DNA from: a virus
Virus record (IMG/VR): IMGVR_UViG_3300022602_004807
Span: 1-64,000 of that record
Length of the DNA: 64,000 nt
Reading direction: 5' to 3' (one strand)
In this document: in pieces, positions 8,775 through 24,837 of the stretch
Numbering within the stretch: position 1 is the stretch's first letter
Layout: the number at the start of each line of letters is the position of its first letter
Notes under the pieces: generated by a model
What the model saw: only the letters and a program-made list of their open reading frames with translations
Told to the model about the DNA's origin: nothing
The model's database searches: none
Made by a program: the position numbers and the translations under genes

Positions 8775-10445
8775 TCAGATGTATGTCACGAAGATTGTGG
8801 ATGCGGAAACGACTGGCGCCTGATTGATGCCGATCTGGATCTCGGCCTGCGCCTGCCCATAGCCGGTGATCGTCTCGCTCGAGACCGTCTGGCCAGTCGA
8901 CACCACATAGGTGCCAGTCCCGCCCGTGCCGGTTCCCAGCCCGGTGATGATCGTGCCGGCCACCACACCCGTCCCCAGCAGAGCTTGGCCTACAGCCAGG
9001 GTGCCGGAGGCGACGGCGGTCACAGTCATCGTGATCCCCGAGATCGAGGCGGTGAAGGTTGCATCCGCGTTGAGGATGGTCGAGCCAAGCTTGATTGCCA
9101 AAACTTGCGCCCATGAGCCAAGGGCTGCGATCGCGGCATAGTAGGAGGACACCGTCAGGATGCTTGCGATCGCTGCGCGCGGGCCGCCACTGACCCCCGA
9201 GAAGAGGTTGGTGATCGCGGTCTGGATCTGGGCCGTGCCGCCGGAAGGAATTGCCGGGTTGTTCTTCATCAGGACGCTGAAGAACACCGTCGGGTTGAGC
9301 GCCGCCTCATAGGTGATCTGATATGGGATCCCCGGCGGTGGATAGGGTGACGAGGTGTCATAGGCCGTGACCGTGGTGTTTCCCATCATAGGGGTGCCAG
9401 GCGCGCGGCTGGACAGAATAGCCTGCGCGATGGCCGATGACGTGCCGCCAGAAACCGTGATGTAGATCGAATAGGGGTTGAGAACCACGCCGCCGAAGTT
9501 CAGGGCCGCGCTGGTGATGGTCTGCGAGACCGAGACCGTATAGGTGCCCACGCCACCCGTTCCGGTCCCCAGACCCGTGATGGTGGTTCCAGCGGCGACG
9601 CCCGGGCCTGTGACGGCCTGCCCGATCTGGATGAATCCTTGGGGCCCGGGAAGCGTCGACTGGATCGACGCGACAGTCAGTGTCGTCCCTGAAATTGATG
9701 AGACGGCCACGACGTTCGGCAGGCCTGCAGAGTAGGAGTTGCTCGGATTGTCCATCACGAAGCAATCGAGGACCCCGGATCCATTCTGAGCCGTCGCCAG
9801 GATAGCGCCCCGGATCGACGCATTCTGACCGTTCGAATTGACCGCCACCGATGCCTGCCGACGAGCCTCAAACTGAGCGCGAGTCTCGACGTTCTGACCC
9901 AAGGCCCCTGCGGCAGGATTCGAGATCGAGTCCCAGCCGGGGATCGTCTGATAAATGGTCGACAGCGCGCCGGCTGCGCATGGCAGCGGCCCTTGCTGAA
10001 TGTTGGCGAAGTTGAGGGAGATGGACCCTCCGACCGGGATCGTGCCGCCATCCACCGCGGCATAGGTGTAGCCGTTGATGTCTTGGGCCAGCGTGCCGCG
10101 GGGAATGACCGTCCCGCTGAGGCCGACACAGGTGCAGGCGACAACCGTGGACTCGCCGGGAATGCGCGACATGAAATAGATGTTGCCGATGGCGTCCTGC
10201 ATCCGGCCCGAGGCGAAGGCAGGGTCAACGCCGTTCGCAAGCGCGCAGAACAGCCCCATGGTGTTGCCGATGGCCGCCGCAAGCGAGGATGCGAGCTGGC
10301 CCTGCGGCGTCGTCAGGTTCGTGACGTTGAGCGTGTTGGAGAAGGCCGCATTGATGTCCTCTAGGACACCCGTCAGGATCGCGCTCTCCGCAGGCGGCTG
10401 AAAGCCTGCCGACGTGAATGACGGCTGGGGGACATTGGTCGTCAT
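8775..10445 (-). CDS. Baseplate J-like protein with two inserted beta-modules
   Basis: 556 aa. The N-terminal half (residues 1-240) has the J-like pattern, with [25 protein letters not shown] and a conserved [13 protein letters not shown] segment. Two copies of a roughly 65-residue module (residues 246-316 and 463-528, motifs [11 protein letters not shown] and [11 protein letters not shown]) interrupt or extend it, which makes it longer than typical J proteins. J proteins form the outer wedge of the baseplate. Starts with ATG overlapping the previous stop (ATGA). Confidence 0.8.
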
Positions 10446-10795
10446 ATCGTTGCTACCGCCGTTTGTCCGCTAGAGCTTGTGACCTGGACCTGCCCGATGA
10501 CATTCCGGTTGATGATCGAGGCGAGGTAGCATTTGGCCGAAACCACACCCGGGACCGTCAAAGCAGCCGCAGTGAACTTCGACTTCATCAGCGAGATGGG
10601 TGGCTGTTTCCCGAGGATTAGAGCCCAATAGGGCACGCCAACCGTGGAGTCGTACCAGACCTCACCCTTAAACGTCCGGATGGCGCTGGCAGCGTCCTGT
10701 GCCAAGGCATAGGGCTCAGCAGCGACAGCGATGTTTCCGGAAGCGTCCGCGACCAGATCCCACGTTGTCGGGTTGAGGAACAGCGTCGATGCCAT
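10442..10795 (-). CDS. Baseplate wedge, gp25/Mu gp46-like
   Basis: 117 aa. Motifs [42 protein letters not shown] and a [20 protein letters not shown] block match the small wedge protein that contacts the sheath and seeds its assembly (GPW/gp25 superfamily). It lies between the spike-tip and J genes, as in Pam3- and Mu-type baseplates. Confidence 0.75.
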
Positions 10796-10807
10796 GGACC
10801 CGCCTCG

Positions 10808-11074
10808 TTAAGCGCAGAAGGTTTTTGCCGAACCGCCGATGATGGATGCGCCGCAGCCCGTGGTGCTGCTTGTCCGGGCGACCAAAGCGCCCTCGCATTT
10901 GAACTGGCTGGATCCGGTCAGGATGGGGGTGATCCCATGGAACGGAATCGGACAGGAGTGCAGGTCTCCAACCCGAGCCACGAGCGCACCCTCGACAGTC
11001 GTTCTGGAGGCCGAGGAGATAATGGTCCCACCGTGGTCTGACCCATCCCCCAATCGAGCGACAGCATTACCCAT
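10808..11074 (-). CDS. PAAR-type spike-tip protein
   Basis: 88 aa. Repeated G-D-x-x-x-G-G, ARVGD and ARTSS elements, with Cys and His residues (HSCPIPFHG, CGASIIGG), form the metal-binding cone typical of PAAR proteins that sharpen the membrane-piercing spike. It overlaps the spike gene by eight bases, consistent with a tip and its shaft being made together. Confidence 0.85.
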   Translation of the reverse strand: MGNAVARLGDGSDHGGTIISSASRTTVEGALVARVGDLHSCPIPFHGITPILTGSSQFKCEGALVARTSSTTGCGASIIGGSAKTFCA

Positions 11075-11639
11075 TGATGTCCACGCTCCCGTTTATCTTC
11101 ACGTTCGTGGCATTGACCGTGACTGTGGCGGCAGAGGTGACCTGAATGTCGCCTGGGCTGTTGATCGCGATCTTCCCGCCATTCAGGTTGATGTAGTTCG
11201 TCGGCGTGGTCTGCATGGACATCGAGCCCATGTAGATCCCGTCCGCCATGTCGAAGCGCCGGCGCGATCCCGGCGCAGACTCGGCCCCGTTGTTCGCCTT
11301 GAAGCTCGAGATGTCCCGGTGCGGGATGACCATCAGCCCGATGTCACCGACAACCGGGTCATTGATGATGACGTTCCCGGAGCCTTGGCCGCGCGTGAAC
11401 GGAATGCCCTTGATGACGGCGTGCGACGTTGGATTGCCTCCGACGCCATCGACCATTTTGATCAGAGGCTGCACATCGACCGTTCCCGGAGGGCCTACGC
11501 CACCTCCTGTGACCTTGACGATCTTGACCGGCATTGCGGTTGAGATCCGTCCGAGCGCCTGGCGAATGAGAAAATTGACGCCGTTTTCTGGGGAGCCGGA
11601 TTCGGCCGACCCCATGAATGGATTATATGCGTCGCCCAT
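11067..11639 (-). CDS. Baseplate spike protein, Gp138/gpV type
   Basis: 190 aa. The OB-fold-like N-terminal domain (residues 30-130, with VDVQPLI..VDG and a DVGLMV-like strand IGLMVIPHRDIS) matches Gp138-type spikes. The C-terminal 55 residues are short beta-helix repeats ending in VKINGSVDING. It forms the central spike below the hub, capped by the PAAR protein encoded next. Confidence 0.8.
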   Translation of the reverse strand: MGDAYNPFMGSAESGSPENGVNFLIRQALGRISTAMPVKIVKVTGGGVGPPGTVDVQPLIKMVDGVGGNPTSHAVIKGIPFTRGQGSGNVIINDPVVGDIGLMVIPHRDISSFKANNGAESAPGSRRRFDMADGIYMGSMSMQTTPTNYINLNGGKIAINSPGDIQVTSAATVTVNATNVKINGSVDING

Positions 11640-11642
11640 CGG

Positions 11643-12524
11643 TTAACCTGCTGTTGAGGGGGTCGTGTCTGATGAGGATCCGGCTCGAAGAGCCTTGATC
11701 GTCTGGAACCATTGTCCGTGTGGCGTGACCGCATCGAGCGCGTATTGGAGATAGTAGATATTCCAATCGCCGCACGCTGGCGTGATGATGCTCTGGATCG
11801 TGATCTGCTGCCCGAACTTGATCGAGGGGTTGTAGAGCGTCTTCACGATCACGCCGGACTGGTCGAACATCGGTGTGCCGACAAGGCCAGTCTCTGGGGA
11901 GATGAGCGCGCTTCCCGCCCTCGCCTGTCCAGCTGGCCAAATTGCGAGCACGCCATTCTCGATGATGTGCTCGATGCCGGCGTGCTCAACCAGAGAGAGG
12001 ATTTGAGACCTTGGCGAGCCCCATAGATATGGGTTTGCGAGCTTGATGCTCACGCCGTTGTTCTCAAATTTGAGACCGGCAGCGCCTGCAATCTTCTGCG
12101 CGATCTGCGCGACATCCGTGGAGCCTTGATAGGACACAGGGTCCGTTGGCATAGCGGCTTCTTTCAGCCCGGCCAGTGCCTGCACCCGGAATGCCACCTC
12201 CGGCATGTTCTGCGCATCCACGTAGGCATAATTGATGGTGCCGGTGTAGATCTGGGTGACGCCGCTGTCAGAATCCCCGGCCGAGACCGTGATGGTGTTG
12301 TTCCTGACCTGCGTCATCTGCGTGCCAACGGTCGATAGCTGGTTCATGACCGAAAGAGGCAAACCATAGATTGCCGCGTCCATCTTCCCCATGGTCACGC
12401 CGGATACGGTCTCGATCCTGACAGAGGACCGCAGTCCAACCGCGCTATGGCTGTTACCGCCACCGTCGAATACCCCGGTGCCCATCGAGAAATCGAACTG
12501 AAGGATCTTCTGCGAGAAGGACAT
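11643..12524 (-). CDS. Baseplate hub protein
   Basis: 293 aa from the ATG at 12524, which directly follows the stop of the plug gene at 12526. A longer frame upstream only reads back into that gene. The sequence has gp27/gpD-like features: N-terminal strands (LQFDFSMGTGVF), a middle region with VYIGTI-type strand TQIYTGTINYAYVD, and SYQGSTDVAQIAQKIAGAAGLKFE. It should form the trimeric hub between tail tube and spike. Confidence 0.7.
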   Translation of the reverse strand: MSFSQKILQFDFSMGTGVFDGGGNSHSAVGLRSSVRIETVSGVTMGKMDAAIYGLPLSVMNQLSTVGTQMTQVRNNTITVSAGDSDSGVTQIYTGTINYAYVDAQNMPEVAFRVQALAGLKEAAMPTDPVSYQGSTDVAQIAQKIAGAAGLKFENNGVSIKLANPYLWGSPRSQILSLVEHAGIEHIIENGVLAIWPAGQARAGSALISPETGLVGTPMFDQSGVIVKTLYNPSIKFGQQITIQSIITPACGDWNIYYLQYALDAVTPHGQWFQTIKALRAGSSSDTTPSTAG

Positions 12525-12525
12525 T

Positions 12526-12840
12526 TCAGTAGATGCCTGAAGGAAGTTCGGATGGGGTGAGATAGACCAGCGCAAAACGCGATCCCAAACCCGTGTAGTA
12601 GGGATCGCTTGAGCCCTGCGTGTCCCACCAAATGAAATCGCCGGAGTAGCCCAGATACTGTTTCCGAATGATCGGGTTTGCGTTCTCGCAGATGACACCC
12701 GCGACGACCACTGTCCCATTCAGGAGCACATCCATGAAGAGCCCCTGCTCTTTCTGGTAGATGTTGAATTGCGTCTCCTGACCTGCGAGCAGCGCCAGGA
12801 ACGTCTGCGATTTGACCGATTTCGTGGGGACCACAAGCAT
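12526..12840 (-). CDS. Baseplate plug protein, Pam3 gp18-like
   Basis: 104 aa from the ATG at 12840. The core NYYQK-like segment QFNIYQKEQGLFMDVLLNG, then ENANPIIRKQYLGYSGD and YYTGLGSRFALVYL, is the plug family described for cyanophage Pam3. It sits between the Dit-like and hub genes, as expected for that baseplate type. Confidence 0.75.
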   Translation of the reverse strand: MLVVPTKSVKSQTFLALLAGQETQFNIYQKEQGLFMDVLLNGTVVVAGVICENANPIIRKQYLGYSGDFIWWDTQGSSDPYYTGLGSRFALVYLTPSELPSGIY

Positions 12841-12850
12841 GGTTGTCGTC

Positions 12851-13459
12851 CTACGCGAAGGCTTGGTTGATCGGGTCGCTGATGTTGGACGGCGCGGCTG
12901 TTGGCTGCACCGTGCCGCCATTCACCGGGTCTGCGGCCGCCGGAGATGCCGCATTCGACATATCGAACCCGCTGGGGGCTGAGGTTCCCGCGATGCGCAC
13001 CTCACGAAGCCAGACATCCACGGCCAATAGCTTCACGCCATTGGAAGAGGTGCGCCGGTAGTCGAAGTGGACCACGTTTGCGTTGGTATAGACCGCCTCG
13101 GGCGAAACTACATCGTAGAGGTTCAGGTCTCCGACGATGGCCTCGATGCTCTGCAGCAGCGCCTGACGGTTGGCGTCAGACCCGCCCGCGACATAGCGCA
13201 CTCGAACGTCGAATGGCTGATAAACCTTGTCGTAGGAGACAAAGGCCCCGGTCTCGATGGGATAGTCCGCGACGACGTATTCTTCCTTGTAGGAGAATTC
13301 GACGACGGTATCAGCCGAGACGACCGGAGCGCCCCCGGAGAAGATGCCCCACTGCGGCCCATAGCCGAGTGAGGCATAGCTGATGGTGTCCTGCGTCAGC
13401 AGTGCGCCGGTGAAGTCGCCAATGGCGAACCCCAGCGTCGGAAGGCCGTTGATGCCCAT
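12851..13459 (-). CDS. Dit-like distal tail protein
   Basis: 202 aa. Residues 35-150 (VEFSYKEEYVVADYPIETGAFVSYDKV region) match Dit-like N-terminal domains of simple myoviral baseplates. The last 45 residues are Ala/Pro-rich and probably disordered. It lies directly after the tape measure gene. Confidence 0.75.
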   Translation of the reverse strand: MGINGLPTLGFAIGDFTGALLTQDTISYASLGYGPQWGIFSGGAPVVSADTVVEFSYKEEYVVADYPIETGAFVSYDKVYQPFDVRVRYVAGGSDANRQALLQSIEAIVGDLNLYDVVSPEAVYTNANVVHFDYRRTSSNGVKLLAVDVWLREVRIAGTSAPSGFDMSNAASPAAADPVNGGTVQPTAAPSNISDPINQAFA

Positions 13460-13460
13460 C

Positions 13461-15923
13461 TCATGCTAATCCGTAGTTCGCGTGAGCAGGACCAAAAACA
13501 TTCGCCACGGACTCACGAATGGTCGACGCAATCCCATGGCCATTGGTGGCCTGGGTGTGGACATTGATCGACCCGATGTGCGTCTGGGTGTGCGACGTGT
13601 TGTTCACCGGGTTGTGGTGATAGTTGTAGTCGGTCCTGATCGCCCCGGCGGCACCCTTTGCAAGGTTCGACGGGTTAAACCAGTTCGGCTTTCCAGCATC
13701 CTGTGGGCTGCCTGATCCCGGATTGGTTCGATAGGCCTTCACGACGGCCCCCGACCTGTCGTTGTCAACTTTCGGGGATTCGAATTCGTGGGTGATGACA
13801 CGAGAGCCAGGGCCAAGGCCTTCCGCAGTCGCATTCATCAAAATGCGCTTCGTCTGCTTGTACTGACCCGACATCGCTCGATGCGCCATTTCGCGCATCT
13901 GACCTTCCGCCGAATTCATTGCGTAGCCATGCTCTTTGAGCCAAGCAAACATCGCGGATCGACGAGTAAGCCGGGCTCCGTAAATTCCGTAGCCCGTTCC
14001 CCCATCATGCGACTTATTCGGGTTTAGGCCAGATTCCATATCGGCCTGCCCGACAAGGTGAGCCGCCGCGGCCCTCAGATTGGCTTCTGGGACACCTTCC
14101 TTGCGGAGCTGGTCCATCGCATAGCCCATCATGGCTTCGCGTGTTGCAGGCTTTGCTGATCCGCCTGTGCCGCCCGTGAACGGGCCGGAGCCGGGGCTCT
14201 TCGGCTCGCCTGGAGTGCCAGCACTTTTGCGGCCGGCACCAGTGAGGCTGGACACGGCCCGAGATACCGCTGCCGCAGGGCCGGACGCAGCCCCACTCGG
14301 ACCGGATCCGAATAGGGTGTTCATCAACCCGCCGAATAGGCCACCAGACGAGCCTGCAGACGAATTCTCGCCCATCTGGACCAGCTTTACGGGCAAGGGG
14401 TTTGAGGACGACACCTCGCCCCCACTCACGCGAATAGCGAGCCCCATGATTGCGCTGGCGGCTGACGCGGCTGCGTTCGGCAGGCCGGTCCCAATTCCCG
14501 CGAACATGCGACCAAGATCCGGGATGATCGTCCCGCTGGTGCGAGGTGTGAACAGTTCAGGCCGGCGCTCACCCACAAGATAGGTCTTGCCAGCTTCGAC
14601 AGGTCCGCCACCAGCACGAGCCCCGTCAATGCCGGGCGGCATTGGAACGAACGGCCCCTTGCCTGGCATTAGCCCGTCAGGGTCGCTCGGTAGGCCTCCG
14701 GATGGCCCTGTATTCATCTCAGGCAGATGCAGCGTTTCGCGCGCCGCCTGTCCTTCCGTTAATCCCTTTTTCAGCCACTCCGGAGCGCTGGATGAAATCA
14801 TAGAGAGGGCGCTGCCAAATAGCCCGACGATACCAGTTACAGACCCCGCAGCAGCAGCCATGAAACTTGCGAAAGTTCTGGCGTATCCAGCGATTTTTGC
14901 CATGCCGACGACAATTCGAGCAATTTTCATCGTCGCCCAAATGCCCGCAACGACCTTCAGCGCAGTTCCCCACCCCGTCGTGCTCGAAACGATTGAGTCG
15001 ATGCTTTTGGCTGTCGCCGCAATGTCCGACGCGATCTTCGGGACGTTATCCCGAATCCATTCCAGCGTGCCCCGGATCGCGTCTGAGAAGGCTTCCTTGT
15101 TGGCTTGCGCCCAACGCTGAAAGTCGCTGACAACGCCTTCCACGACAGGCGCAATCTTCGGGAGGATGTCGTTTGCAACCGCTGCGAGGGTCTGCTTCAG
15201 CTCAGTGAATGATGTCAGCAGCCGGTTCGACGCATCAATGGCAGCCGGCGACGTCAGCCCGATTTGGCCGCTCTTCTCCAGCTCCTCCCGAACCTTCTTG
15301 CTGCCCTGAACGAGCAGGTTGAATTCCGATTCCGGGATGTGAAGCTTCTGCGCCAGGTCGAGGGCAACGGTCCTCTGGCCCTGATCGTCCAGCTTCTTGA
15401 GCGCATCGGCAGCAGACAACAGGAACGGCGTCAGGCCATGCCCATAGTCGACAGCTTGCCCCGACAGCGCGCCGATGCGAGCGATGGCTTCCATGAAGCC
15501 TTGGCTCTGCTGGCCAATCTTGACGTTAGCCAGCTCGGTGCTGATGGCCCGGATCGACTCCGCCGCGCCCTCAGACGTATGCGACACACGCTCGATTGCG
15601 TTGACCAGCGCCTGCACATCCTGCGGCTTCTGGCCGACGTTGGCCGCAAACAGCCCCAGCGCGGCATCCGCCTTGGTCAGGTCGGACGTGAAGTCCTTGA
15701 GGCCTCTTGCGCCTGCCAGTACCGCGAACAGCTCAAGGAACCGGATCGTCAGCTTGTTGACAAACTCGTTCGACGACTTGATCGACTTCTCAATCTCGGC
15801 CCCGCCCTTGCGGACGGTTTCCTTGGTCTTGTCGATCTGGTCGCGGGCTTCCTGCTGCCCCCTGCGCAGGTCCTTGGAATCGAAGCCAAGCGTGACAACG
15901 AGAGAATCAATAACCGTTGCCAT
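13461..15923 (-). CDS. Tape measure protein with C-terminal tail lysozyme
   Basis: 820 aa. The N-terminus (residues 1-60, coiled coil after VVTLGFDSKDLRRGQQEARD) is a normal tape-measure start. Residues 320-380 hold hydrophobic, membrane-competent helices. Residues 410-590 are Gly/Pro/Ser-rich. Residues 595-735 match phage tail lysozyme, with likely catalytic Glu630 in GQADMESGLNP. Length sets tail length; 820 aa predicts about 120 nm if 1.5 angstrom per residue holds, which is a family rule and not measured here. The start lies inside the end of the chaperone frame. Confidence 0.85.
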   Translation of the reverse strand: MATVIDSLVVTLGFDSKDLRRGQQEARDQIDKTKETVRKGGAEIEKSIKSSNEFVNKLTIRFLELFAVLAGARGLKDFTSDLTKADAALGLFAANVGQKPQDVQALVNAIERVSHTSEGAAESIRAISTELANVKIGQQSQGFMEAIARIGALSGQAVDYGHGLTPFLLSAADALKKLDDQGQRTVALDLAQKLHIPESEFNLLVQGSKKVREELEKSGQIGLTSPAAIDASNRLLTSFTELKQTLAAVANDILPKIAPVVEGVVSDFQRWAQANKEAFSDAIRGTLEWIRDNVPKIASDIAATAKSIDSIVSSTTGWGTALKVVAGIWATMKIARIVVGMAKIAGYARTFASFMAAAAGSVTGIVGLFGSALSMISSSAPEWLKKGLTEGQAARETLHLPEMNTGPSGGLPSDPDGLMPGKGPFVPMPPGIDGARAGGGPVEAGKTYLVGERRPELFTPRTSGTIIPDLGRMFAGIGTGLPNAAASAASAIMGLAIRVSGGEVSSSNPLPVKLVQMGENSSAGSSGGLFGGLMNTLFGSGPSGAASGPAAAVSRAVSSLTGAGRKSAGTPGEPKSPGSGPFTGGTGGSAKPATREAMMGYAMDQLRKEGVPEANLRAAAAHLVGQADMESGLNPNKSHDGGTGYGIYGARLTRRSAMFAWLKEHGYAMNSAEGQMREMAHRAMSGQYKQTKRILMNATAEGLGPGSRVITHEFESPKVDNDRSGAVVKAYRTNPGSGSPQDAGKPNWFNPSNLAKGAAGAIRTDYNYHHNPVNNTSHTQTHIGSINVHTQATNGHGIASTIRESVANVFGPAHANYGLA

Positions 15924-16529
15924 GTTCTTTTCGCTCCCGTTCCTTTTGAACGATGCGCCGGTTGTGCGCGTCCACCGAGTTGATCTCTAGGAGGAGATAG
16001 ACATCTTCGATGGAATAGTCGGTCTGGCAGTCCCTCAGACTCGCCTTGCCCGAGGAGACGACCGCCCCGATGGTAGCGGGGGTGTTGGCGTATTCGAGGA
16101 AGTTTCCGCCGGCGTCTCCGAGGTCGAGCTCGATGGGGCGCCGGGAAGCGAAAAACCCGTGTGAAGCTTGAAAACCTCCCACTTGAGGATCAGCCGGGTC
16201 TTCGTTTCCTCGATGTCGTCCAGCGTCAGCTTGCGCCGAAGCATTGGATTGGACGGGTCAGGAAGCACATAGACGCACTTCATCAGCTCGTCCGCCAGGC
16301 GCCATGATTCCTCGCCCGGCATGTGGAACAGCGCGTTGATCCCGATGACCGCGAGCTGCTCCATTCCAGCGCCAGCGATGTCGCCCACGTCGACACCACC
16401 AGCTGCAAGTGCCATGACGACCTGCCATGCCCAACGCTCGGCATCGTAGGCCGACATTTCGGCAATGAGGAACGTCTTGCCCTTGTCCCGGCCCTCGTCC
16501 GAGACGATGTATTCGACTTCCTTACGCAA
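15907..16529 (-). CDS. Tail assembly chaperone, frameshifted long form (gpGT-like)
   Basis: 207 aa if ribosomes slip -1 at the GGGTTTT heptamer (16152-16158). Residues 1-126 come from the first frame; the next 81 come from the -1 frame, beginning FASRRPIELD and ending at 15907. The extension has TDYSIEDVYLLLEINSVDAHNRR, typical of the T part that binds the tape measure. The stop overlaps the tape measure start by 17 bases. Heptamer phase, position and product all agree with known gpG/gpGT pairs. Confidence 0.85.
16035..16529 (-). CDS. Tail assembly chaperone, short form (gpG-like)
   Basis: 164 aa without frameshift. Residues 1-126 hold the conserved chaperone (RWAWQVVMALAAGGVDVGD and KTRLILKWEVFKLHTGF). 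After the slippery site the zero-frame tail is a low-complexity Ser/Pro/Thr stretch, which is why the short form looks like a simple truncation. It follows the tube gene and precedes the tape measure gene, the normal order. Confidence 0.8.
   Translation of the reverse strand: MRKEVEYIVSDEGRDKGKTFLIAEMSAYDAERWAWQVVMALAAGGVDVGDIAGAGMEQLAVIGINALFHMPGEESWRLADELMKCVYVLPDPSNPMLRRKLTLDDIEETKTRLILKWEVFKLHTGFSLPGAPSSSTSETPAETSSNTPTPPLPSGRSSPRARRV
16152..16158 (-). promoter_or_regulatory. Programmed -1 frameshift site GGGTTTT
   Basis: On the minus strand the heptamer reads G GGT TTT in the zero frame (Gly125-Phe126 of the 16035-16529 gene), the canonical X XXY YYZ form. A -1 slip re-pairs as GGG TTT and enters the 15907 frame without a stop. 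The GC-rich sequence that follows could form a stimulatory structure, which I did not fold. Confidence 0.85.
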
Positions 16530-16545
16530 GGTCGAATTCCTTCAC

Positions 16546-16998
16546 TCAGGTGATCGGAGACGTGTTGGCGGGCGCTGGGAAGATCGAGTTCCAGACGATC
16601 CCGTACTTCCTCGGCTGCAGGATCTTGTGAACGCCCGAATAGGTCGGGTAGCTCGAAAGGTATCCGTTGACGAGCAGGTACTTTTTCCCGATGGCCGGGA
16701 GCGTCAGGGTGCCAGAGCAGCCGATGGCATCCTTGATGTTCTGCATCTGCACCCACCAATTATCGAAGATGTCATTGGATGGTGAATTCGCCTGCAGGGT
16801 GATCGTCTGCTCGAACGGCACGAACTGGAAGCCGGCCGCGAGAACGCCATCCACGCCCATCTGGGTCTCGATGGTCCGGATTTCCGCGACGTCGGTGACG
16901 TTGTCGGTGGAGAACTGCTGCAGCTGCTGAGGGGTAGGATAGAGACCCGGAATTGCCAGTGCGAAGATTGCATTGGCGGCGGTCAATGTACCAGCCAT
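16546..16998 (-). CDS. Tail tube protein
   Basis: 150 aa, typical of tube length. It follows the sheath gene and precedes the chaperone, which is diagnostic by position. Motifs FEQTITLQANSPSNDIFDNWW and PAIGKKYLLVNGYLS are consistent with tube proteins paired with DUF3383 sheaths. The protein should stack as hexameric rings inside the sheath. Confidence 0.75.
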   Translation of the reverse strand: MAGTLTAANAIFALAIPGLYPTPQQLQQFSTDNVTDVAEIRTIETQMGVDGVLAAGFQFVPFEQTITLQANSPSNDIFDNWWVQMQNIKDAIGCSGTLTLPAIGKKYLLVNGYLSSYPTYSGVHKILQPRKYGIVWNSIFPAPANTSPIT

Positions 16999-17034
16999 GT
17001 TGATGACTCCTGTTGAAGGTTATGGGGCCGCCGA

Positions 17035-18978
17035 TTACGGGATTTCGATGGAGGCGAGGTTGATGGACTGCACGCTGCCGCCGTCGGTGTACCAGAAGGT
17101 CATCGGCGGAGTTCCGCGGGCCTGCCGGACCTGCGCACTCGCGGGGAGGATCTGCAGGTAATAGCCCAGCGTCGACAGTGTCGTGTCGATCTTGACGCCC
17201 GCCTGATTGTTCACCTCTGCGGCCTGCAGGAGGCTCAGCGGCACGCCCTGACGGATCAGGCCGAAGTTGATGGCCTGCGCGATGACAGTCTGGCAGGCCG
17301 CGTCGATGAGCGCATATCCCGCCGCGTTGTAGGGGATCGACTTGACGTTGGTCAGCAGCGCCATCAGCGAAAGTTGGAACTGCGCATTCATCCAGATCTG
17401 GCCGATGAAGGCATCCGCCCACAGGAATGGCCCGGTGACCGAACCTGGCCACAGATAGTTGAACTGCTGCGCAGCCGTTGCGACCGCCACGTAGCAGTTA
17501 TAGCCGTTGGCCACGAGGTTGTTCATGGTCGTGACATTGGTCACGTCCGGCACGACACCCGACTGGCCTTTGTAGGCAAAGGTGATGCGGCCGTTAAAGC
17601 CATTGTAATTGATCGAGGCTCCGAAGCCGGACACGACCCACTGCAGATAGGGGTTTGCAGTCTGCCACAAGCAGATGGTGCCGCTCGTGTTGGCAGCCTT
17701 CAGCAGGTAGCCAAGGCTCGACGTGGCGGTTGCGCTGTTGGCGGGGTTCGGGTCGCTGTCCAGCGCGATGTAGCAGAACTCGCCATTCTGCTGGCTGTTC
17801 CATAGGGCAAATGCCTGCTTGTTGGCGTTGCCAGACCCGAAGTCCGGATCGAAGTCGGTGAAGAAGGTCGCAAAGTTGACCGTCTCGCCGATGAGGTTGG
17901 TCATGTAGGCGGCGGGGGTGATGACCGCACCTGCGCCCTGCGAGAGGGTGACGCCGGTCGCCGCCGTGAGGAGCAACAGGGCGGACAAGGTGCCGGTCGG
18001 GGCCGCGATGGTCGACACAGCGCCAACGGCACCAGAGGTCACGACGAAAGCGCTGGCCGTGCTGTCCCACGAAACCGTGGGGGTTGCAGGCTTGACCGTG
18101 ATCGACGTGCTCGAGGCCGTCTGGGACGGGGACACGAAATAGGTGCCCGTGGTGCCAGTGCCGGTGCCGAAAGCCCAGATCTGCGTCCCAGCGGTCACGC
18201 CCGAGCCCGACAGGACGTTCTGCAGGGCAATTGTTCCAGACGACACGGCGGACACTGTGAGCGTGCCATAGCTGCCGGTGATCGCAGTCGAGGCGACCGT
18301 CTGGGCGATGCTGACCGAATAGGTGCCGACACCGTTGGCGGTGCCCGACAGCTGGCTGGTGATCATCGTGCCGGCTGTGACGCCGGTGCCGGTGATGATG
18401 GTGCCTTGAACGATAGAGCCAGACGAGACTGCGGTGACCGTCAGGGTGTTTCCTGCGATCGACCCGGTGAAGGCATTGGTGGATGCCGCAATGGAGCCTG
18501 TCACGGACGCGCCGGACGGCGGGGTTGCCGTGATGGCCGTCTGGATGAGGGAGGCCGCATTGCTGAAGCTGGTTGCGGTCGAAAGGCTCACGCCGGTCGC
18601 GGACCACGTATAGCCGTCAGCAACGAACGAGATGTTGCCGGTATAGGCCTGCAGGGTGGCGAGGGACACGCTCAGCAGCGACCCGCGAGCCCAAGCCGCG
18701 ACAGGCGTCACGTTGTACTGCGAGAAGGCGAGCGAGGCGGGCTTGATGTCCGAATTGTCGAATCCGGCAAAATAGTAGCCGGCGCCAATCGCCTGCGTGG
18801 ACGCCGCTCCGAAGTAGGCCGCGACAGCAGCCTGCGAGGAGAATGGCACCACCGTGTTGATCGGCACGCGCGGGCTGGAGGTGAGGCACAGGCCGATCAT
18901 GCTCAGGGCCGTGCCGGTAAGCCCTTCGACCCCCGGAATGACGCTGACGAAATTTGAGGCCGGAATTGTATTGACCAT
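17035..18978 (-). CDS. Tail sheath protein, DUF3383 family, with two surface modules
   Basis: 647 aa, longer than plain DUF3383 sheaths. Residues 1-150 and 300-647 carry the sheath (VVPFSSQAAVAAYFG, DFDPDFGSGNANKQAFALWNSQ, NVKSIPYNAAGYALIDAACQ). Residues 169-235 and 236-295 are two tandem beta-modules (GVGTYSVS and TTGTYFVS signatures) inserted between them, probably on the sheath surface. It proves a contractile tail. Followed by the tube gene. Confidence 0.85.
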   Translation of the reverse strand: MVNTIPASNFVSVIPGVEGLTGTALSMIGLCLTSSPRVPINTVVPFSSQAAVAAYFGAASTQAIGAGYYFAGFDNSDIKPASLAFSQYNVTPVAAWARGSLLSVSLATLQAYTGNISFVADGYTWSATGVSLSTATSFSNAASLIQTAITATPPSGASVTGSIAASTNAFTGSIAGNTLTVTAVSSGSIVQGTIITGTGVTAGTMITSQLSGTANGVGTYSVSIAQTVASTAITGSYGTLTVSAVSSGTIALQNVLSGSGVTAGTQIWAFGTGTGTTGTYFVSPSQTASSTSITVKPATPTVSWDSTASAFVVTSGAVGAVSTIAAPTGTLSALLLLTAATGVTLSQGAGAVITPAAYMTNLIGETVNFATFFTDFDPDFGSGNANKQAFALWNSQQNGEFCYIALDSDPNPANSATATSSLGYLLKAANTSGTICLWQTANPYLQWVVSGFGASINYNGFNGRITFAYKGQSGVVPDVTNVTTMNNLVANGYNCYVAVATAAQQFNYLWPGSVTGPFLWADAFIGQIWMNAQFQLSLMALLTNVKSIPYNAAGYALIDAACQTVIAQAINFGLIRQGVPLSLLQAAEVNNQAGVKIDTTLSTLGYYLQILPASAQVRQARGTPPMTFWYTDGGSVQSINLASIEIP

Positions 18979-18996
18979 CTTCGAGCTCCTTCGAGC

Positions 18997-19731
18997 TTAC
19001 ACGGGATTGGAATTGGCAGGCGTTTCGATTGTGACCGACAGCGCGTCGGCAAAATCCTGCGGCGCACTCATTGAGACATTCAAGCCCATTTCGGCGGTGA
19101 TCACCCAGCGGGTTTCCATTTGCTGCTGGTCGTTCCAGAACGGGATCTGCTTTGGATCGTCGGCCGAAATTGGAGAAACATCGCCCGGGCCGAAGCCTGA
19201 CCAGAAGTCCTGCGCCGTCTGATCCCGATAGAAGGTCGAGATCAGCATGGCGTTTGCAGCACTGTTGGGCCCGTGCACGTCGAGCTGCACAGACATGCTC
19301 ATCGACTGCATGAGCCCGATCTGGCCGCAGGACATTTTCTCGCTCGAGATCGTTGCAGAGGCGCTGATGGTGTAGGTCCCTACCCCGCCGGTCGTCCCGC
19401 TGGTCTGCGAGACGATCTGCGCATTGGCAGGAACGCTGGTTCCGAACAGCGTGGTCCCGGTGACGATGGTCCCAAAGTTCACGTGAGTGACCGTCAGGAC
19501 CGTGCCACTCATCGACGCGGTGAACGAGCAGTCCGTATAGGTGTTGAGGTTCGTGGCGACGCGCTTCTGGTCCACCAGCGTCATCATCACGAAGTCGGGT
19601 TCGGCGGGCTCTGCAACCCTGTTGACCTGGGCCTGATAGACACCGACCCCAGATGAAAGCACGGCCAGCAGAAAAGCCCGCAGCGTCGTCAGGACCGACG
19701 ACTGAGTCTGCGATGGCGAGAAGTTCGTCAC
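18997..19731 (-). CDS. Neck/tail-terminator-like protein with one inserted module
   Basis: 244 aa. Residues 12-66 and 140-240 resemble the LIC_12616 / gp12-like neck terminators (SVQLDVHGPNSAANAMLISTFYRD, QTAQDFW, ETRWVITAEM). Residues 69-134 are another copy of the repeated beta-module (GGVGTYTIS). It lies immediately upstream of the sheath gene, where tail terminators are usually found. The family call is from pattern and position only. Confidence 0.55.
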   Translation of the reverse strand: MTNFSPSQTQSSVLTTLRAFLLAVLSSGVGVYQAQVNRVAEPAEPDFVMMTLVDQKRVATNLNTYTDCSFTASMSGTVLTVTHVNFGTIVTGTTLFGTSVPANAQIVSQTSGTTGGVGTYTISASATISSEKMSCGQIGLMQSMSMSVQLDVHGPNSAANAMLISTFYRDQTAQDFWSGFGPGDVSPISADDPKQIPFWNDQQQMETRWVITAEMGLNVSMSAPQDFADALSVTIETPANSNPV

Positions 19732-20027
19732 CCGGCAAGCCCGTAGAATGCCACGTTAAGGATGGCCCCAGCGGTCGCCTGAATGAATTGCAGGGCACTC
19801 ATCGGGCCGCTGTAGAGGAACGGCTGATCGGTGGTGGTCATCAGCATCCCGACGGTCGAAGTGGGTGCCGTGCCATCATCGCGCCAGCGGACGTTCTGCG
19901 CCTCAGCCTTCAGAAGGACGTGAGTGGTCCCGCCTGGGACCGTCACGCTTGCCGATTTGAAGGTGGTGGCTGCGGACATGCCGGTGAGTTGCGCATAGCC
20001 GAGCGCCTGATAACGGGCGATTTCCAT
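19728..20027 (-). CDS. Hypothetical head-tail region protein
   Basis: 99 aa, beta-rich, with GGTTHVLLKAEAQNVRWRDDG. The stop overlaps the next gene's start by four bases (ATGA). Small proteins of this pattern occur beside connectors in other phages, but I cannot name a role. Confidence 0.55.
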   Translation of the reverse strand: MEIARYQALGYAQLTGMSAATTFKSASVTVPGGTTHVLLKAEAQNVRWRDDGTAPTSTVGMLMTTTDQPFLYSGPMSALQFIQATAGAILNVAFYGLAG

Positions 20028-20030
20028 TGG

Positions 20031-20414
20031 TCAGCTTCCGTTTTGGAGGGTAGCGCAGACCTTCGTCCAGTTCGGGTAGGACTCCAGCTCTTGCACGACT
20101 AGCCAGACGCCCGCGTTCGCGCCGTCCGTGAGGGTGATCAGGTCACCGCCCTTGTTGGTCACCCGAGAGAGCGCGTTCGCGTCCCCAAACAGGTAGATCG
20201 CGCGCTGCGAGCCGTTCAGGTTGATGCCCGACAACTGCCGCAGGTCACCGGAGGAAAGCGGCTGCACCTGCGCAGACACCGTCACAGGGGCTGCATAGGC
20301 AGGGACGCGCGTTCCATCCGCGTTGGTGGTGGTCCCGGCGGACGCTTGGTAGGTCGCTGGAACATTTGGGTTGATCGCCTGAATGATGGGGTTGGCGATC
20401 CCGTGCAGGTTCAC
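20031..20414 (-). CDS. Possible head-closure/stopper protein
   Basis: 127 aa. Position between the gp10-like connector and neck terminator, plus small beta-rich architecture (VQPLSSGDLRQLSGINLNGSQRAIYLFGD), fits a stopper, but no clear family signature was recognised. Only three and one bases separate it from its neighbours. Confidence 0.45.
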   Translation of the reverse strand: MNLHGIANPIIQAINPNVPATYQASAGTTTNADGTRVPAYAAPVTVSAQVQPLSSGDLRQLSGINLNGSQRAIYLFGDANALSRVTNKGGDLITLTDGANAGVWLVVQELESYPNWTKVCATLQNGS

Positions 20415-20415
20415 G

Positions 20416-21150
20416 TTACGCGCTCAGGAGCTGGTGCCAGGCGCCGGCGACGGTCGTGAAGTATTCCGCCGTTTTGCCTGCGGCCAGCGCCACGCCGGTC
20501 GCGCCTGCAACGCCATTGATCGTGTCGGAGCCGTTGCCATAGACCTGCAGGGAGTTTGCCCCAGCATTCATGACCACGATGCTCATCCCGCCCGCGGCGA
20601 CTGGAAGAACGGCGCCTGTGCCGCTGCCGACGGTCGTGAAACGGTTCTGGCAGGTCTTGATGGGCGTCGCAGTCGCTTGGTTCGCGCCAGCCCCGCTCAT
20701 TGCGTCCTGATAGGAGAAGGTCGGAAAGTTGCCGGCATATCCGGTCCCCAGACCTTCGACATACCAAGCGCCAGCAGTGGCGCACATATACAGGGCCACG
20801 CTGCCTTGCATCTGGGTGACGCCGGTCGCGCCAGCCACGTCGCTCACCGTATCCGAGCCATTTCCGTAAACTTGGATCGGGTTATTGCCATGGTTGATCA
20901 CGACGATGGTCACGCCAGCCTGAGAGGCAGGCAGTCGGACGCCGTTGCCTGATGTCGCGCTGGTCGTGACGCGATTGACCTCGGCGGTCAGCGCGGTGGC
21001 GCCGGCCTGCGTCTGCGTCGTGCCCGCGACGATGTTGTCTTGAAAGCTCTCAATGAACAATGTGTTCGGTGCAAGGCCGAGGCCGGGCATATTCAGCGAG
21101 CTCACGTCGCCGTTGCTGGAGCTGAATAGAACAAGATTCTGATTTGCCAT
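20416..21150 (-). CDS. Duplicated-domain virion protein (possible head fibre)
   Basis: 244 aa made of two copies of one roughly 85-residue domain (about residues 45-134 and 155-243). Both contain an NR(V/F)TT start, a VYGNGSDT core and a VAGATGV turn, and end in AGAWY/AGAWH. An N-terminal 40 residues (SSLNMPGLGLAPNTLF) may anchor it. Repeats of this kind with a C-terminal AGAW motif are seen in head-fibre or decoration proteins. Position is between connector genes. Confidence 0.5.
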   Translation of the reverse strand: MANQNLVLFSSSNGDVSSLNMPGLGLAPNTLFIESFQDNIVAGTTQTQAGATALTAEVNRVTTSATSGNGVRLPASQAGVTIVVINHGNNPIQVYGNGSDTVSDVAGATGVTQMQGSVALYMCATAGAWYVEGLGTGYAGNFPTFSYQDAMSGAGANQATATPIKTCQNRFTTVGSGTGAVLPVAAGGMSIVVMNAGANSLQVYGNGSDTINGVAGATGVALAAGKTAEYFTTVAGAWHQLLSA

Positions 21151-21162
21151 GTTGGCGTCTCC

Positions 21163-21705
21163 TTAAGATTTCACTGCATAGTTCGCGGATGCGAGCATGT
21201 GCCCGCTATCAACGAGGGGTTTGTCTGATGCGCCGAAGTCGGACTGCCCAGCGGCCACGCGCTTCTTCGCCTCTGCAAAGCGTTCCCAGAATGGCTTGTC
21301 CCGCCACTCTGACTGGCTGCGCAACCCGCGCAGCATGACCGTGATCGGGCTCAAGGCCGGGCTATTCGTCTCGATGATGGATTCCTGAAGCTGGCCGGTC
21401 ACAAGCGCGCCGATCTGGCCCAGCGTTTTGTTCGCATCGAAGTCGTTGGCCTCAAGCGAACCCTTGATGTCCGCCGCCCACTCGCTCTTGCGCTTTGAGA
21501 TCATGGTCCGAAAATACGGACGCGGTGGCACACCCTTGCCGGGAGCGCCGAATTCCTGAATGGCCGCAACCATCGCGACCAGCGTGCCGTCTGGATAGGT
21601 CGCGTCTTCGAGAAACCCGATGTCGACGGTCTTGGCCTTGGTCAGCTTGTCGATGCGCTTCTGGATGGCGCCGGCAAACTTGTCGCCGCCCTTCACCTGC
21701 ACCAT
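21163..21705 (-). CDS. Head-tail connector / tail completion protein, gp10/virion-morphogenesis type
   Basis: 180 aa. N-terminal basic region followed by VDIGFLEDATYPDGTLVAMVAAIQEFGAPGKGVPPRPYFRTM, a pattern shared by HK97 gp10-like and virion-morphogenesis proteins (EFG, PPRPFxR). The C-terminal KPLVDSGHMLASANYAV is likewise typical (L.DTG.L..S..Y.V). It probably helps complete the tail end for joining to the head. Confidence 0.7.
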   Translation of the reverse strand: MVQVKGGDKFAGAIQKRIDKLTKAKTVDIGFLEDATYPDGTLVAMVAAIQEFGAPGKGVPPRPYFRTMISKRKSEWAADIKGSLEANDFDANKTLGQIGALVTGQLQESIIETNSPALSPITVMLRGLRSQSEWRDKPFWERFAEAKKRVAAGQSDFGASDKPLVDSGHMLASANYAVKS

Positions 21706-21714
21706 GGCAGCCCC

Positions 21715-22161
21715 CTATCGGAACCAAGGAAAGCCGCCGAAGATGCCTGGGCGCGGATATGGCGTGTTGCGGGTGTAGTACCGACCGCGCGTCACCGCCT
21801 TGATGAGCTGGTAGAACATGGCCCCATATTGGGTCTGGTTGAACCATGCCCCATTCGGGCTGCCCTGCGGGAAGTCTGCGGAGACACTGACAGAGCCCTC
21901 GGATGCAGAGCCAACACGCCCTACAAGGCCAGAGACGGGCTGGGTTGTGGATCCGTACATCAGCTGCGCGACGTGCGCGACCATCAGCCAGAGGGCCTGC
22001 AGCTGCATCGTCGGGTCGTCGATAGGCCCGCCGCCATCGTTGCGGCAATAGACCTGGGCGAGGGTCAACACCGGCCCATTGATCTGGGTCGGTGTCACGT
22101 TTGAGAATTGGGGATAGGCGGCGCTCCAGTCCGAGTAAACGAAGGTGACAGCGACGCCCAT
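21715..22161 (-). CDS. Head-tail adaptor, DUF4054 family
   Basis: 148 aa. Motifs FVYSDWSAAYPQFSNVTPTQI, LALWLMVAHVAQL-like segment and the C-terminal YGAMFYQLIKAVTRGRYYTRN are typical of DUF4054 connectors that bind under the portal. Position two genes after the capsid supports this. Confidence 0.75.
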   Translation of the reverse strand: MGVAVTFVYSDWSAAYPQFSNVTPTQINGPVLTLAQVYCRNDGGGPIDDPTMQLQALWLMVAHVAQLMYGSTTQPVSGLVGRVGSASEGSVSVSADFPQGSPNGAWFNQTQYGAMFYQLIKAVTRGRYYTRNTPYPRPGIFGGFPWFR

Positions 22162-22173
22162 CTGATTTCCGGC

Positions 22174-22689
22174 TTACGCCGCCCTGTTTGCGTTGAGGCC
22201 CCGCGGAACGCGCGGATCGACGATCACATCAGCCCGGTTCTCGCGATCATATCCACGGATCAGAGGCTCGATGCCGCTGAGGTCCTTTTCATGATCGGAG
22301 GCCTTGGCCTTGATGTCGGCAACGCTTTCGAAAGCAATGATCATGTTGCTTTTGACGAACGGTGCCAGCTTGTTCTGCTTGAGCCAGTTATCCCAAAATT
22401 CCCGAGGGACGTTGGGGGTCAGGGCATAGCCCATGACCATCTGGGGACGGTCCGGAAAGCCTTCCGGAATCACCCCGACCGGGTAAGCCGTGCCGCGAAT
22501 GCGGACCGGATCACCCACCGGAACGAACTTCTTGATCTTGCGGCCCCCGACAGGGGTGTTCTCCCATTCCTCGATCTCCTGATCGACGTGAAGGTCGATC
22601 CAAGCGACGTGGATTTTGCAGGCCACGGTGACGTAGCCTGTGGGTGCCTTGGCTTCGACTTTCTGATCAGTCGGAATACGCTCTGCCAT
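22174..22689 (-). CDS. Hypothetical structural-module protein
   Basis: 171 aa from the ATG at 22689, chosen because an AGGAGAG ribosome site lies just upstream; an in-frame ATG 24 bases earlier overlaps the capsid gene. The protein is charged, with alternating strands and helices (KIKKFVPVGDPVRIRG, FPDRPQMVMGYALTPNVPREFWDNWL). No family recognised. It lies between major capsid and connector genes. Confidence 0.6.
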   Translation of the reverse strand: MAERIPTDQKVEAKAPTGYVTVACKIHVAWIDLHVDQEIEEWENTPVGGRKIKKFVPVGDPVRIRGTAYPVGVIPEGFPDRPQMVMGYALTPNVPREFWDNWLKQNKLAPFVKSNMIIAFESVADIKAKASDHEKDLSGIEPLIRGYDRENRADVIVDPRVPRGLNANRAA

Positions 22690-22702
22690 AACTCTCTCCT
22701 GA

Positions 22703-23797
22703 TCAGACGCCAAGCATGCCAGCGATGGCGACGGGGACGCGGACGATGGTGCCCCATGTGCCGCTGGTCATCTTCTGCTGGAAAGAAGAAGCCTCCGGGA
22801 CGATCTTCCCGGCGCGCATCTTCTCGTTGTAGGCGACGTAGGCGACCTTCTGGCCGTCAACCTCTTCAGCGATAAGCTGAATGGCGTTGCCGGCAGCCGA
22901 GTAGCCCTGCGAGTTCGAGGACTGCTGCAGGCCATACTGCGGAGCGAACTTGACCTTGATGTTAGGCCATGAGGCTTCCAGCAGCTCGCGCACGGTCTTG
23001 CCGAAGGCGTTGGTGAAGCCGAGCACGCTCTGCAGCGTGGAAGGCAGAGCCAGCGTCATCGGGGTTTCGGCGGTCACGACACCGTTGGTCTGGACCATCA
23101 GCTTGTTGATGAGCGCCAGGAAGTCGTTATAGACCTCGTTCGCGGTCGCGCCGGGCGACGTGCCGTTGTACCAAGTCGTGCCGCCCCAAGCCTTCGTGGC
23201 TGGCGTCAGCCAAGAGGACAGGAACGGGTTGTTGAGCAGGCCGTAGTTCTGCAGGCCGGCGACCCCGAAGGCATACGAGAAGTTCGCATAGCGATTGAGG
23301 ATGTTGGCGGCTGCGCGCTGCAGCTCACCCACATAGTTCAACTTCAGCAGCGCAGCGCGATCGGTTTCCAGATCCCCATAACGGATGAAGGTCTGGAACA
23401 GATAGCTCTGGAACTGCGGATAGTTGAAGTTGATGCCAGCGCGGCCGGACGTCGAGTAGTCCGAATAGCTGGACACCTCACCCGTCTCTTCCACGACCGG
23501 GAAGATGCGGGTCTGGTCAGTCCAGGTTCCTACCCGACGCTCTGCACCCACGATCTCGGCCATGGCGAGCGGCCCGAAGATGACGCGGATCAGATCCGGG
23601 TCAACGGCGGTGGTCAGCATGGTCGGAATGGCCGAGTTCTGCGATGTCGTCAGAGTGCCGGCCTCTGCGTCCATGGCGAACCCGTCGAGGGCCATGTCGT
23701 CAGAGATGAAGGTGGTGACGCCGGGCAGATAAACGCCGGCCTGTTCCAGTGTCGGGCGGACCTTTTCCCATTCCGCGCGAGCTTCGAAGCGGTTCAT
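22703..23797 (-). CDS. Major capsid protein, DUF2184 family (HK97 fold)
   Basis: 364 aa. Motifs ARAEWEKVRPTLEQAGVYLPG at the N-terminus, the E-loop/P-domain stretch GEVSSYSDYSTSGRAGINFNYPQFQSYLF and GTWGTIVRVPVAIAGMLGV at the C-terminus are those of DUF2184 capsids. There is no scaffold-like N-terminal extension, consistent with a separate scaffold encoded in the protease gene. It follows the cement gene. Confidence 0.85.
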   Translation of the reverse strand: MNRFEARAEWEKVRPTLEQAGVYLPGVTTFISDDMALDGFAMDAEAGTLTTSQNSAIPTMLTTAVDPDLIRVIFGPLAMAEIVGAERRVGTWTDQTRIFPVVEETGEVSSYSDYSTSGRAGINFNYPQFQSYLFQTFIRYGDLETDRAALLKLNYVGELQRAAANILNRYANFSYAFGVAGLQNYGLLNNPFLSSWLTPATKAWGGTTWYNGTSPGATANEVYNDFLALINKLMVQTNGVVTAETPMTLALPSTLQSVLGFTNAFGKTVRELLEASWPNIKVKFAPQYGLQQSSNSQGYSAAGNAIQLIAEEVDGQKVAYVAYNEKMRAGKIVPEASSFQQKMTSGTWGTIVRVPVAIAGMLGV

Positions 23798-23847
23798 TTG
23801 AGGATCTCCTAGGAATTAGCCGATGCGAAGCCCGGCTGTGTTGGGGG

Positions 23848-24837
23848 TTAGCTCAGCTGCGAGCCGAAGCCGGTGACCGGAGCCGAGATCTTGACGTGCT
23901 CACCCGCAGTTGCGGAATTGAGCGCGTACCAAGGCGTCTCGACGTTGGTGGCGACCACGACAGTGCCGGACGTTGCGGTGCCGATCGTCGTGAAGGCGTT
24001 CGGGCGCTGCAGAACGTACTTGTTCGTGGCGTACACCGAGGCGAGCAGCGCGCCGGCAATGGTGCCGGTGACAGTGCCGCTCGACGACACGACCACGTCG
24101 CCCAGCGCGATGGTGCCCGTGATCGAGCCACCCGATGCGTCGAGGACGAGAGGGGTGATCGTCAGGGTCGTGCTGGCGACGGTCTGCTCGGGAACGTCGA
24201 CGTAGTAGGTGCCCACGCCGCCGGTGGTGCCCGAGATCTGCGCAAGGACCGAAGTTCCCGACACGACGCCGGTGCCCGACACAACCGCGCCAGGGAAGAT
24301 CGTGCCGGACGCCACGGCCGAGACGGTCATGATGTTGCCGGTGATCGAACCAGTGGTGCTGGCCGCGGTGCCGTTGGCGATGGTGGACAGCGTAGCGCTG
24401 GCCGTGGTGGGAGCGCCTGCAGCCGCAAAGCTGATGGCACCGGTCGCAAAGGCCGCATAGGCCTTCATGCCGCGCAGGGCCTGAGCGGAGCCCTCGTTGA
24501 CGACGATGAAGTCGCCGCCGGTCGCCAGCGCAACCGGCAGACCGGCCGGGACCGTCATGCCCGCATAAGACAGGAAGGTCGTGTTGAGGCCCTGCTGATT
24601 GCGCAGCACAAGACCCGACACGTTGCCGGCGCCGCTGCTGTTGGCAACGGATGGGCCATTGTTTGCGTCGAGGGGAGAAGTCACCCATGCGAAGCGACCA
24701 ACGGTCACGCCGTTGGCACCTGCCACGAGACCGGCAGCGCCGACATCGAACATCGAATAGGGGTTGAGGCTTGCGAAGTCACCAGCGACGCCAATGGCGG
24801 GCTGGCTGAAAACTTGCGTCTGGAATCCGCCAGTCAT
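23848..24837 (-). CDS. Capsid cement/decoration protein with inserted beta-module
   Basis: 329 aa. Residues 1-150 ([51 protein letters not shown]) match Gp24-like structural cement proteins encoded before DUF2184 capsids. Residues 161-228 carry the repeated beta-module (GGVGTYYVD). The C-terminal part returns to cement-like strands. It should bind the outer capsid surface and display the module. Confidence 0.75.

Follow-up and report, generated by a model that had tools for sequence, protein, structure and literature searches.

Why should the same small beta-rich segment recur in four different structural proteins of one tailed phage? The question is raised by a 64,000-nucleotide stretch of viral DNA (positions 1 to 64,000 of the IMG/VR record IMGVR_UViG_3300022602_004807; the whole stretch is called here the window), in which an earlier reading of the letters, made without database searches, had noticed a module repeated six times in a baseplate J protein, the tail sheath, a neck protein and a capsid cement protein. 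First seen by a six-frame motif scan, exactly six copies are present on the minus strand of the window, at coordinates within ~9 bases of those of this original prediction, and when one copy was used as the query against the entire 67.7 kb virus record, the same six and no others were returned. To prevent circularity, the copies were scored with a profile for which 91 modules were taken from other phages and none from the window, and all six reached 63-85 bits with this window-free profile (E 1e-18 to 1.7e-25). The names given to the host proteins hold by Pfam and PHROG matches, and what had been described as a module of about 65 residues is indeed a single family, although its unit is nearer to 69 residues. 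The host proteins and their copies, with the scores of the latter against the window-free profile, are the following.

8775..10445, minus strand: baseplate wedge J-like protein, 556 amino acids; PF04865 (Baseplate_J) E 2.8e-5, phrog_6 E 4.8e-39, XM1 gp16 (7kh1) E 2.8e-6
9492..9716, minus strand: module copy 1, mid site of J, 75 amino acids, with an extra loop STLPGPQG; 63.3 bits, E 1e-18
8859..9065, minus strand: module copy 2, C-terminal site of J, 69 amino acids; 85.0 bits, E 1.7e-25
17035..18978, minus strand: tail sheath, 647 amino acids; PF11863 (DUF3383/tail sheath) E 2.2e-103, phrog_205 E 3.4e-71
18271..18480, minus strand: module copy 3, in the sheath (tandem pair, first unit); 73.6 bits, E 6e-22
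18091..18282, minus strand: module copy 4, in the sheath (tandem pair, second unit); 66.1 bits, E 1.4e-19
18997..19731, minus strand: neck/tail terminator, 244 amino acids; PF23961 E 6.1e-16
19324..19533, minus strand: module copy 5, in the neck/tail terminator; 73.8 bits, E 5.3e-22
23848..24837, minus strand: minor capsid (cement/decoration) protein, 329 amino acids; PF23982 (XM1 gp53) E 1.1e-19, phrog_2122 E 1.2e-33
24154..24366, minus strand: module copy 6, in the XM1 gp53-like capsid cement; 64.0 bits, E 6e-19

When aligned, the six copies share 39-58% pairwise amino-acid identity, and in the sheath the first strand of copy 4 overlaps the last strand of copy 3. Nothing in the remainder of the window exceeds 5 bits with the window-free profile, and the controls reach at most 13.8 bits for residue-shuffled modules and 7.5 bits for shuffled virion proteins, so that a likeness arising merely from composition bias was rejected. 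One and the same profile thus finds the module in sheath, baseplate, neck and capsid proteins, as had been claimed. The cement stretch directly after the module (23940-24150) scores 1.1 bits; most relatives carry a second tandem module there, and this stretch is possibly a decayed or replaced second copy.

The proposal that the segments were inserted into their hosts was borne out by the comparison with relatives, for which 38 related phage contigs were fetched by a C-terminal sheath scan (43-58% identity) and every open reading frame (ORF) was scored for modules. Each of the four host proteins is found in this set both with and without the module, in a mosaic pattern, and the length of the host grows by ~70 residues per copy. 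Thus, the median lengths with zero, one and two modules are 511, 588 and 657 amino acids for the sheath and 191, 252 and 312 for the neck protein; J with zero to three modules has medians of 408, 497, 560 and 664 amino acids, and the cement, with 0 to 3 modules, measures 171 amino acids when module-free and 311-330 when it carries them. There is one insertion site in the sheath, essentially one each in the neck and cement proteins, and two in J, with tandem copies seen in the sheath and the cement, whereas the tail tube (41 members) and the major capsid protein (20) never carry a module among these relatives. Alignments reveal clean empty loops at the module sites: the mid site of J is empty in L092, L109, L116 and L089, and its C-terminal site in L092, L109, L116 and L087 (both inserts are missing from L092, L089 has just that of the C-terminal site and L087 just that of the mid site); the sheath site is empty in L089, L092 and L109, the neck terminator site in L090 and L109, and the cements of L111 and L112 (161-182 amino acids) are without module. 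The solved sheaths 9b42, 8env and 8fvg, from Pseudomonas phages, also lack the insert, their flanks rejoining near residue 157. With the inserts removed before the sheath tree was made, parsimony requires on it a minimum of 5 gains or losses for the sheath, 4 for the neck, 2 and 4 for the two J sites and 2 for the cement, which sum to at least 17 changes over five sites, independently per site. Because the relatives have empty sites at exactly the same loops, the copies in the window are insertions at tolerant loops of their host proteins. One sheath that was scored as module-free (L110:1763-3487, 575 amino acids) has, at the usual sheath site, an insert that resembles a diverged module, so the module counts in relatives are lower bounds. 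The neck terminator ORF of L104 (2896-4875) carries, fused at its N-terminus, an extension of ~490 residues that is glycine-rich and repetitive.

The module is also predicted to fold alone. AlphaFold2, run on an isolated 72-residue module with an input alignment of 71 related modules, gave an all-beta model (pLDDT 96.4, pTM 0.83) that begins and ends in a long strand (4-22 and 53-71), which would suit insertion into loops. This prediction describes an all-beta domain able to fold independently and, considered together with the module-free relatives, it indicates that the segments are not integral to the core folds of their hosts. No solved relative of the module was found by sequence searches, no family covers it in Pfam and NCBIfam scans, and phmmer yielded a weak match to YebT MCE domains (E 0.011, below default significance). 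The best PDB match in structure is chain 1 of Arthrobacter phage Bridgette (8eci; TM 0.73, 27% identity, Foldseek E 0.016), whose Z of 7.5 over 66 residues is barely above unrelated rows; this chain was absent among the matches up to E 10 when the 71-module profile was compared with all PDB chains. Next come barrels of the EF-Tu domain 2 type (eEFSec, eEF1A, IF2 and EF-Tu; Z 5.8-7.3, 69-70 residues), then a segment in the tail tube of phage Mystique (Z 6.2), the N-terminal barrels of F1-ATPase and residues ~180-260 of the E1 enzyme; the barrels as a group show Z 5-7 over 63-70 residues. With all Z values below 8, such matches may reflect just a common arrangement. A kinship with E1_FCCH (PF16190) was considered and is not supported, since PF16190 matches neither the virus record nor any of the 71 modules and hhalign against the FCCH stretch of L149 returned a probability of 0.3%. 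L149 (1214-6928) is a 1905-residue ORF from a metagenome-assembled genome labelled Nitrosarchaeum, in which a Pfam E1_FCCH match lies directly before a module.

The original prediction had also set the family apart in sequence from immunoglobulin-like (Ig-like) domains. In agreement with this, the Pfam scan of the 71 modules gave no Ig family except for one Big_1 match at E 0.16, and that of the six window copies gave no Ig-family match. The structure match lists contain no Ig chain and are led by beta-barrels, although absence from such lists does not exclude a family. By sequence, then, the module is not Ig-like, and its best structural matches are beta-barrels.

How widely such modules are distributed was estimated from samples collected with a module query, from bacterial genomes, with a 29-base DNA motif and from the sheath relatives. 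In total, 588 modules were found in 393 ORFs, which fall into 77 host clusters without BLAST similarity outside the module, an approximate number given that clusters were formed by single linkage after module masking and that some ORFs are contig fragments. A true module is encoded at 79 of the 80 loci with the 29-base motif. The identifiable hosts are mostly phage virion proteins, and include the head closure protein Hc3, an Ad3-like adaptor, a head completion protein, two sheath families, baseplate wedge proteins, many tail fibres, a head maturation protease family and other virion proteins; among the predicted viral structures of BFVD, the module occurs in an HK97 major capsid protein and in a P22 gp10-like protein. 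Tail fibres and long fibrous ORFs carry 1-6 copies, and full-length copies with intact core residues are present in phages of many habitats and hosts. In ten bacterial genomes (5-11 Mb), all 34 copies are confined to one contig per genome, which is consistent with prophages. For a few bacterial ORFs in the sample, phage origin is not established, as in the case of a 1115-residue ORF with four modules on a bacterial contig of Terriglobus albidus (L132:877-4221), which matched no Pfam family. Another module-bearing ORF (L225:289-1857) also has a GDSL lipase/acylhydrolase domain and is perhaps a tail-associated esterase, and two collagen-repeat proteins of the giant virus Indivirus (BFVD A0A1V0SCQ2 and A0A1V0SDM6) show the module fold with 54% and 41% identity. 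Filtered tblastn and blastn searches of isolate phage records gave nothing useful, but the low-complexity filter probably masks the module, so that absence is not implied; no occurrence of the module motif strings was found in a literature search. Elsewhere in the virion region of the window, a 244-residue protein (20416-21150) contains an internal duplication, VYGNGSDT(V/I)..VAGATGV twice, and had no family match in the Pfam and PHROG scans.

The module is under purifying selection and has been selectively kept: the ratio of nonsynonymous to synonymous substitution rates (dN/dS) is 0.13-0.27 for modules versus 0.10-0.20 for host parts, these being rough values with synonymous sites near saturation (proportion of synonymous differences, pS, 0.56-0.70). 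Foreign base composition was sought in the modules, and their GC content and that at third codon positions (GC3) are close to those of the hosts. In a module tree made from 69 columns, with many forks unresolved, copies cluster by host protein and site (44 label changes versus 105-121 in shuffles), and some window copies lie nearest to the modules of another protein, as does the second sheath copy with cement copies. Recent intragenomic duplication was rejected, as the within-genome identity across proteins is 0.469 versus a matched between-genome expectation of 0.461 (p 0.38) and modules in different host proteins show no DNA match above ~79% identity. Considering the lack of any within-genome excess of likeness and of such DNA matches, the transfers between proteins look old, and sites once established appear to have lost and gained modules repeatedly thereafter. 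Hopping among virion proteins is seen across the 77 host clusters, but it looks old, and the copies mostly track their site.

These observations can be integrated in a reading that, on balance, we take to be the right one: the ~69-residue all-beta domain would serve the virions of tailed phages as an accessory domain, promiscuous in its choice of host protein. Having entered a few tolerant loops of the structural proteins, alone or as tandem copies, it would be exposed on the outer face of capsid, neck, sheath and baseplate, and there would provide weak multivalent adhesion to polymers of the cell surface or the environment, in the way proposed for the Ig-like domains of phages. The insertion site of the sheath corresponds to a position near residue 157 in the solved sheaths, within the flexible domain of Pa193 gp32, which spans residues 91-210 (PMC11042391), and the equivalent domain A of the E217 sheath is absent from the pyocin sheath (PMC10329688); for these reasons the site is very probably on the outside. 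Extra sheath domains have been described as positioned away from the tube, with a role in adhesion or stability suggested for them (PMC9230969). Display on the outside of all four structures is probable, published structures supporting it for the sheath site only. Published homologous virions contain from ~100 to a few hundred copies of sheath or cement, with 204 sheath subunits in E217 (PMC10329688) and 180 cement copies in Pa193 (PMC11042391), so hundreds of modules may be carried per particle; XM1 gp16 is present in 12 copies, two in each of six wedges (PMC10457771). We infer adhesion itself, and two observations weigh against it. The conserved positions of the module are mostly structural (Gly, Val, Thr and Tyr), with no obvious common binding site, and the likeness among the copies of one virion does not exceed that between copies of different phages, which is not the simplest expectation from one common ligand.

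The chief alternative, unlikely in our judgement yet deserving a serious hearing, is structural reinforcement, in which the virion would be stiffened by contacts of the modules with adjacent subunits or among themselves (sheath-sheath, cement-cement or neck-sheath) and no outside ligand is involved. It would fit with insertion sites in proteins of repeated lattices (sheath, cement, terminator and baseplate), with the tandem copies in sheath and cement, with purifying selection, and with a nearest solved neighbour that is a virion chain of phage Bridgette; moreover, stabilisation is one published option for extra sheath domains (PMC9230969). However, modules are gained and lost independently between sites, close relatives assemble without them, and 1-6 copies also occur in tail fibres and long fibrous ORFs, which form no such lattice. 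It is improbable that the module is a near-neutral, insertion-tolerant unit that recombination has spread and that brings the phage little benefit. Hundreds of copies do reside in very different proteins, at loops where any domain may be tolerated, and the N-terminal domain of the XM1 sheath holds an unrelated insertion domain (PMC10457771), but dN/dS values of 0.13-0.27, close to those of the host parts, and the occurrence of full-length copies, their core residues intact, in phages from many habitats and hosts are difficult to reconcile with such neutrality. Finally, the idea that the segments are integral to each host fold and similar only through a Gly/Thr/Ser-rich composition, which could draw on the bias towards G, T, S and V and on the lack of matches in the filtered tblastn search of isolate phages, can be put aside almost entirely, being refuted by relatives in which the segment is wholly absent from the same loop; the gap between shuffled copies (13.8 bits at most) and real ones (63-85) and the high-confidence prediction that the segment folds alone also speak against it.

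A broader version of the promiscuous surface domain reading can be put forward tentatively: the module might be a phage-wide plug-in surface domain with a fold of its own, a second system beside the Ig-like domains, forming a shared pool that tunes adhesion of the whole particle. If this were true, sheath, neck, baseplate, capsid, connectors and fibres would all be decorated from that pool, and the BFVD matches in the two giant-virus collagen-repeat proteins would extend the plug-in domain beyond phages. As it stands, an unnamed family decorates four structural systems of one virion (sheath, neck, baseplate and cement). Its recognition would aid the annotation of environmental phages and would allow a direct test of whether accessory virion domains serve adhesion or stability, and the module marks insertion-tolerant loops in sheath, terminator, J and cement proteins.

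The textbook case of domains hopping among phage virion proteins is that of the Ig-like domains. Like them, the module is a beta domain of small size that recurs in numerous virion proteins with no relation to each other (tail fibres, baseplate, tail, head and decoration), and it is optional, as shown by its presence/absence matrix and by the 77 host clusters; horizontal exchange and a proposed weak carbohydrate binding are further features of the Ig-like domains. These have been reported on phage structural proteins such as Hoc, N4 gp17 and additional sheath domains (PMC9230969, PMC7602432). Unlike them, the module has no Ig sequence match, its best structural matches are beta-barrels, and it is internal in the loops of sheath, terminator and J. 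Bridgette chain 1 (124 amino acids) is the best fold match in the PDB and belongs to a phage virion structure, but with a Foldseek E of only 0.016 and no sequence-profile match common ancestry is not established, and the literature search found no paper on the role of this chain. The same applies to residues 103-178 of the tail tube of Acinetobacter phage Mystique (9n71), similar over 62 residues at 18% identity but in a different host protein, and the barrels of EF-Tu/eEF1A/IF2 domain 2, E1 FCCH and F1-ATPase share a similar beta arrangement but at Z below 8 and without a profile link. The insertion domain of the XM1 sheath is likewise an optional domain within the sheath N-terminal domain, but it resembles FliD D3, an unrelated fold (PMC10457771). 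PHROG 21413 and PHROG 38233, matched by 61 and 49, respectively, of 69 different host ORFs, have profiles that include the module at about positions 396-466 and 548-626, but both are whole-protein families (unknown or tail fibre) in which it is not recognised as a unit. Mobile accessory virion domains are already known as a kind, and none of the libraries searched has a name for this family; its fold appears different from that of the Ig-like domains, and the analogy with them is one of behaviour, not of family.

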